Shown in pieces: positions 58,059-59,167 of a stretch of 64,000 nucleotides of DNA. The DNA is taken from positions 1-64,000 of the forward strand of contig JANQNU010000079.1 in the NCBI GenBank assembly GCA_028279405.1, read 5' to 3'. The notes beneath the pieces are model-generated. The model worked only from the letters and a program-made list of their open reading frames with translations, was not told the origin of the DNA and did not search any database. The stretch is from Phycisphaerae bacterium (lineage in GTDB: Bacteria; Planctomycetota; Phycisphaerae; UBA1845; Fen-1342). The translations under genes were made by a program, and so were the position numbers. How positions within the stretch are numbered: the stretch's first letter is position 1; every line of letters begins with the position of its first letter.

Positions 58059-58390
58059 CGCGTAAGCACTGGGGTATACTCACCCCGAGGTGGGCGTCCG
58101 CACTTGCGTTCATCGCGAATCGGTACTACGCGCGGCGATGCTAGCGAGCGACGAGCTCCTCCGCCGGTTGCCCAGTGACGTCCCCAGCAAATCAGGGTGG
58201 GGCGGCGTCTCGCACGCCGGGCTAGCCGTAGATTTTTAGGTTCTTCATCCCCTTCAGAAGAGCTGCATCGTCTTTCATTTGTGCGTGCTGCAACGTCCTT
58301 GCATTTCGAGCCGCATCGGACCATATTGACTCTTCCGACGCATCGCAACACGATCAGTTTTTATCGAACTTGAGCAAGTGAGGATCGATC
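58059..58390. other. Intergenic stretch, no gene seen
   Basis: About 330 bases between the hydratase and the DUF3179 gene. It holds the probable promoter of the latter, but I cannot place boxes with confidence. No repeat or RNA gene seen. Confidence 0.5.
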
Positions 58391-59167
58391 ATGGCCGTGC
58401 GACGTTCGCGCACGTTCAATCTTGTGGTGGGTGTAGCCGCGGTTGTCGTCGTTGGTGCCAGCGGGTACCGCATCTGGGGCGAAGTACAGACCCTGCGTCA
58501 ACTGGAGCAAGTGCCCCCGCAGCGGACGAGGTTGGCGTCCGACAGCTTCCACGGCAAGCCAATCGTCGAGCGCGATGGGCGAAGATACCTGTGGGCCAGG
58601 GACGACGATAATGAGGAGACGGGCGCCCAGTGGTTCGATGTGACCGACTCCACGATCGACCCGCGCGAGTTCCAGTACGGGATCGGCAAGGACAGCATCC
58701 CGGCGATCGACCGGCCGGCGTTTGTCAGGCTCGACGATCCGCGTTTGACCGCGCATGAGATCAAGCCCGAAACGCAAATCATCGGCTACGTACACAACGG
58801 TCAAGCCAAGGCATACCCGCTGGATTTGCTGAATCGCCACGAGCTGGTCAACGACTTCGTCGGCGGTAGACCCGTGACGGTCGGTTACTGACCGCTGGTC
58901 GATCTGTCCGTCGTGTACGGGCGCGCACCATCGAACGAACCCACCACTTTCGGAACCACCGGCTACACCATGCGCAACACTTTCGTGCTCTACGACCGCA
59001 GTACCGAGACGGTGTGGTATCCGCGTGAGAGCTACCTCGAGGCGACCTCCGGCCCCCGTCGAGGAGAGAAGATTCCGTTCATTGAGAAGCCGGAGCCGAT
59101 GCGACTGGCCGAATGGGGCGCGCGACACCCCGAGACGCTGGTGCTGATCGGCGACGGTGATTCATAG
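58391..59167 (+). CDS. DUF3179 protein with in-frame TGA, candidate selenoprotein
   Basis: One frame of 259 codons from ATG 58391 (after GTGAGG) to TAG 59165 is broken by a single TGA at 58889-58891 (codon 167). Both sides belong to the same family domain: before it, IGYVHNGQAKAYPLDLLNRH and VGGRPVTVGY; after it, PLVDLSVVYGRA, TTFGTTGYTMRNTFVLYDRS and TETVWYP. In DUF3179 proteins the position is a conserved Cys (the Y/W-C-P-L motif). TGA could therefore encode selenocysteine, helped by the hairpin that follows, or be a fresh nonsense mutation. The second family Cys (CPLC) is Val here. The N-terminal membrane anchor (LVVGVAAVVVVGASGYRIWG) places the domain in the periplasm. Confidence 0.7.
58899..58934 (+). 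promoter_or_regulatory. Bacterial SECIS-like hairpin after the TGA
   Basis: Seven pairs (58905-58911 with 58917-58923, two of them G-U) close a five-base loop CGUGU with G in the second position. The loop starts 20 bases after the TGA. A lower five-pair helix, UCGAU/AUCGA (58899-58903 with 58930-58934), lies below an internal loop. As I recall, the bacterial SECIS consensus asks for a small apical loop with G in its first two positions, 16-37 bases after UGA, which this meets. Confidence 0.45.

Follow-up and report, generated by a model that had tools for sequence, protein, structure and literature searches.

DUF3179 (PF11376) already appears on published lists of selenoprotein families, and in the portions of those papers considered here its selenocysteine (Sec) motif is given as UxxC/T (PMC9312934, PMC13188914). 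A first-pass annotation of the DNA described below had stated that some DUF3179 proteins are annotated as selenoproteins, correctly according to the same portions of these sources (PMC9312934, PMC13188914). Different Sec motifs within one domain are treated as different subfamilies in the relevant part of PMC9312934, and the corresponding part of a 2026 review gives deiodinase-like selenoproteins and those of DUF3179 separate entries, each with a single Sec (PMC13188914). The family is known as a selenoprotein; what sequence comparison appears to add here is a subtype with a lone Sec, together with a set of fusions.

The DNA that we analyzed, called the window here, is a stretch of 64,000 nucleotides (positions 1 to 64,000, forward strand, of contig JANQNU010000079.1) from assembly GCA_028279405.1 of Phycisphaerae bacterium (GTDB lineage Bacteria; Planctomycetota; Phycisphaerae; UBA1845; Fen-1342). 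Comparative evidence indicates that it contains an intact gene that almost certainly encodes a DUF3179 selenoprotein, with Sec predicted at an in-frame TGA.

A DUF3179 domain divided by a TGA codon

The frame opens with the ATG at 58391 and closes with the TAG at 59165-59167, and its sole internal stop is the TGA at 58889-58891. The read-through product (58391-59167; 258 residues, with Sec at residue 167; delimited by translation, Pfam match and a 40-row protein alignment) scored 123.9 bits against PF11376, well above the cut-off of 27 that defines membership in the family. The segments on either side of the TGA also passed this cut-off separately, the first at 59.3 bits and the second at 41.3 bits. 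Since each half matches DUF3179 separately, we conclude that one domain is split by one stop codon. These scores and the translation confirmed the first-pass description of a lone in-frame TGA with family-like sequence on either side, and the further disabling mutations that it had proposed to look for were absent: the frame contains no other stops or frameshifts. Standard annotation would end the gene at the TGA, and half of the domain would be lost.

All of the features discussed lie on the forward strand. Direct reading of the sequence suggests a possible Shine-Dalgarno element, GAGG, at 58380-58383, 7 nt 5' of the ATG. The N-terminal hydrophobic segment at approximately residues 7-26 (58409-58468) is a probable signal anchor, judging from its sequence and from a modelled helix spanning residues 7-39; the membrane anchor probably lies within the latter range and the domain outside the cytoplasm. 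The DUF3179 core (58673-59164) is half-length, covering profile positions ~1-150 of 292, and is delimited by the Pfam match and a structural model with a pLDDT of 93.9. An NCBIfam search yielded a family neither for the window protein nor for one close relative. An antisense open reading frame (ORF) of 255 aa at 58361-59128 was taken to be a shadow of the coding frame. Beyond the gene itself and this shadow ORF, no neighbor cluster occurred in more than 8 of the 48 loci compared for conserved neighborhood, and none of the clusters recurring among those loci was shared with the window.

The TGA column and the Sec machinery

We surveyed 114 genomes of the window's taxonomic order, in which DUF3179 copies are either long forms without a TGA or short forms, almost all with one. 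The TGA-bearing copies (the window's and 48 others) align their TGA in one column in 49 of 49 cases, and most are 40-59% identical to the window protein. A scan of a genome collection and a search of the phylum gave 109 homologous loci, partly the same contigs under different names; the Sec column holds TGA in 70 of them, TGT or TGC in 39 and any other codon, including TAA and TAG, in none. The aligned column proposed earlier as a check is therefore occupied by TGA or Cys throughout, and the gene displays two marks of a bacterial selenoprotein, an in-frame UGA inside a conserved coding frame and the pairing of Sec with Cys in homologues. The named relatives are mostly from Phycisphaerae and other Planctomycetota, and Sec forms also occur under records labelled Nitrospirota, Desulfobacterales, Acidobacteriota, Gemmatimonadota, Sumerlaeota and Hydrogenedentota. 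In more distant long paralogues of the order, the site is occupied by N, S, D, A or C, and position +3 is nearly always Cys. The first-pass annotation had placed the TGA at the conserved Cys of the family, which holds for the gene's own branch and for most family members retrieved, where Cys or Sec is found, but not for these long forms, which can have N, S, D or A. Two of them, neither with a TGA, are encoded in the same genome (L018/L104 and L017/L103), one with DPLC and one with CPLC.

A pseudogene, or a recent nonsense mutation converting TGC or TGT to TGA, would need one base change only, and the gene sits on its own rather long end branch (0.62). Against such inactivation, the 48 other copies in the order carry TGA at the same codon with the downstream protein conserved, the frame is otherwise undamaged, and dN against eight relatives (0.30-0.45 before the TGA and 0.38-0.52 after it) is well below dS (1.07-3.85, where estimable) on both sides. 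These sequence comparisons indicate that the part after the TGA is under purifying selection at the protein level, and we regard inactivation as extremely improbable. The same small probability applies to a functional product of 166 aa that ends at the TGA, with a relic or a separate gene downstream. Although the segment up to the TGA forms a complete ORF, the domain runs through the site in Cys homologues, and the invariant residues G188, D202, W209, W242 and L252 of the 40-row alignment all lie 3' of it.

The selenoprotein reading also agrees with the gene content of the genome. The assembly, which is 95.5% complete in 92 contigs, contains a tRNA-Sec with anticodon TCA, a SelB match above the curated cut-off, SelA (554.9 bits) and SelD (372.7 bits), so that all four of the genes named earlier as a check (selA, selB, selC and selD) were found. 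The selD frame of this genome contains one TGA, in CAG-U-AGK (L021:1531-1533), at the known Sec site of SelD. With its own TGA at that site, selD would be a second, independent Sec gene in the organism. A strong hairpin lies 3' of the selD TGA, its loop starting 33 nt downstream. Across the order, selA is present in 29 of the 35 genomes with a TGA-bearing DUF3179 copy, and the remaining six are incomplete assemblies (63-88%).

A hairpin conserved beyond the protein code

The predicted bacterial SECIS (bSECIS) hairpin occupies 58906-58922, with a stem formed by 58906-58911 and 58917-58922. Counted from the TGA, the stem begins at 14 nt and the apical loop (CGUGU, 58912-58916, with G at position 2) at 20 nt. 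The first-pass annotation had read the loop and its G correctly; its statement that the hairpin begins 20 bases after the TGA fits the loop but not the stem. Taken alone, the window hairpin has a folding z-score of 0.29 against shuffled sequences, no better than chance, and by the same rule 12% of the window's TGAs are followed by an equally good G-loop hairpin. For these reasons we dropped the hairpin as stand-alone evidence. The earlier argument from it was thus weak on the window sequence but became strong in the homologue alignment.

In 48 aligned sequences, 99.7% of the cells of the six-pair stem are paired. Four of the six pairs show compensatory changes, such as UA to AU and GC or CG to UA and GC, and cells with both sides changed number 14 versus 1.1 in shuffles, a count uncorrected for relatedness. 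Control alignments with slid partners destroyed the pairing. The window stem itself has a G-U where its relatives lead one to expect U-A. Codon choice points the same way: the Ser codon inside the hairpin is TCC in 42 of 42 sequences (9.2 expected) and the Gly codon is GGA in 41 of 43 (7.3 expected). The codon bias is already strong at the codon next to the TGA, peaks within the hairpin and is gone at most positions a few codons past it, and the synonymous constraint was located in codons 5-10 after the TGA. As in bacterial selenoproteins, the hairpin is kept beyond what the protein code requires.

All six stem pairs are present at 59 of the 70 TGA loci and at 1 of the 39 Cys loci. At some TGA loci without the full stem, from Desulfobacterales and Nitrospirota, a hairpin forms in a shifted register. 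The Cys homologue with all six pairs (L114, with TGC) may carry the remnant SECIS of a lost Sec codon, by analogy with the remnants described for other families in the part of PMC1794560 considered here. A second Sec-type DUF3179 branch (L056, L057, L063 and L101) has the motif SW-U-PSEQ and a different SECIS stem (CGATCGT/ACGATCG) that is paired equally well.

Translation would likewise pass through the frame if TGA were reassigned throughout the genome (to Trp, for instance) or if the stop codon were simply read through without Sec, and Trp or Tyr does adjoin the site. However, the column alternates with Cys rather than with Trp, many of the same genes terminate at TGA, the genome has a full Sec system and a selD with its own canonical Sec TGA, and the hairpin accompanies TGA and is mostly missing where Cys takes its place. 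We therefore consider this explanation very unlikely, if marginally less so than inactivation of the gene. Least probable of all is a sequencing or assembly error in which TGC or TGT was read as TGA; the assembly is a draft of 92 contigs, but the same TGA, with a covarying hairpin, recurs in dozens of independent assemblies. On the sequences compared, a pseudogene, a sequencing error and simple readthrough are in practice excluded. The proposal of a candidate selenoprotein gains support from the machinery, the TGA/Cys column and the lack of further disabling mutations.

We propose that ribosomes would read the UGA at 58889-58891 as Sec by means of the same cell's tRNA-Sec, SelA, SelB and SelD, directed by the predicted SelB-binding hairpin 14-31 nt after the UGA. 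The product, 258 residues long, would be anchored in the membrane near its N-terminus, and its beta-rich domain would probably lie outside the cytoplasm. The protein's one Sec, at residue 167, would sit where a strand ends, within G[WY]-U-P-L; the Cys that many relatives carry at +3 is missing.

A lone-Sec clade, its modelled fold and its fusions

On a tree of 112 cores rooted at the midpoint, the window protein falls in a 56-row clade (support, 100/99) of 54 Sec and two Cys members, none of which has Cys at +3. The clade has the motif UPL[V/A/D/S] in a half-length domain, with UPLV in the window protein, and the residue before Sec is Tyr in the window protein and Trp in nearly all clade relatives. 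Nearly all of the UPLC and CPLC forms are placed outside the clade, together with a few further forms that lack the second Cys (UPLA, CPLA and UPSE). Three residues after Sec, where the UxxC/T subfamily has C or T, the window protein has V and its clade V, A, D or S. If subfamilies are defined by Sec motif, as in the part of PMC9312934 cited above, the UPL[V/A/D/S] clade would be a variant, set apart from published examples by motif description only. The tree requires at least four changes between Sec and Cys. The family also provides a clean set of cases in which Sec and Cys are exchanged and the SECIS hairpin is gained or lost.

In a 75-row core alignment, the only invariant Cys-type residue is C/U73, and there is no second conserved Cys. 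The best 29 structural neighbors of the core model are all Rieske-type, with Z-scores of 6.7 to 3.0 that exceed those of unrelated rows; Z-scores below 8 are weak and can reflect a common arrangement. Foldseek searches of the PDB with the full protein and with the core gave no significant match, and a search of solved structures by sequence gave no match.

Three relatives encode deiodinase-TPR-DUF3179 fusions in one frame (L176:203-3190, L172:902-3223 and L166:1376-3196). Each fusion has two in-frame TGAs, one in the deiodinase motif FFGSYT-U-PPF and one at the DUF3179 site, and each TGA is followed by a hairpin. The TPR-like repeats were recognized by Pfam in two of the fusions and by NCBIfam in the third. 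No deiodinase-DUF3179 fusion was found in the portions of the literature searched. In other loci, Sec-DUF3179 is joined to PDZ (L109), trypsin-like and/or EF-hand (L121, L123 and L130) or DUF547 (L164) domains. Deiodinase-family matches above the cut-off occurred in 37 of the 114 genomes of the order, every match with exactly one in-frame TGA, and a profile search of the window's genome found none. Such matches were present in 23 of 35 genomes with a TGA-bearing DUF3179 versus 14 of 79 genomes without, and in 19 of 29 versus 12 of 66 among selA-bearing genomes, both comparisons being confounded by relatedness. Because of this confounding, and because the window's genome has no deiodinase, we treat the co-occurrence as a lead only. 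The double-selenoprotein fusions are the sole functional link found here for DUF3179, and they point to deiodinase-like enzymes.

Since the Sec interchanges with Cys only, no other Cys is conserved, and relatives have deiodinase-like Sec fusions, we infer that the domain probably performs redox chemistry through a lone selenol, which would need an outside resolving thiol or a partner protein. That partner could perhaps be deiodinase-like, a possibility that we hold only tentatively. The use of a lone Sec by planctomycetes of this order in a function-unassigned DUF3179 protein narrows the chemistry to be considered. More speculative still is the full picture of a lone-Sec DUF3179 type with a Rieske-like beta-fold without iron-sulfur ligands, a single selenol as redox center and deiodinase-like Sec thioredoxin-fold partners, the two being joined as a double selenoprotein in some Phycisphaerae.

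Compared with canonical bacterial Sec decoding, the system is alike in having SelA, SelB, SelC and SelD and a conserved G-loop hairpin with its loop from 20 nt after the UGA; no difference was detected, with SelB binding being predicted. The core model resembles Rieske-type domains (NirD, dioxygenase ferredoxins and Rieske proteins) at weak Z-scores of up to 6.7, but the two Cys-His cluster boxes of a Rieske 2Fe-2S protein are absent, and DUF3179 alignments lack a conserved Cys/His set for the cluster. The published DUF3179 selenoprotein (PF11376) shares the Pfam family, the in-frame UGA for Sec and a Uxx-type motif, whereas the window's clade has V/A/D/S at +3 and approximately half of the Pfam domain, a comparison made by published motif only. 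Deiodinase-like selenoproteins (PF00837) have a different domain, one that is absent from the window's genome. In three relatives, however, this domain, listed with UxxC in the part of PMC13188914 considered here, is fused to Sec-DUF3179.
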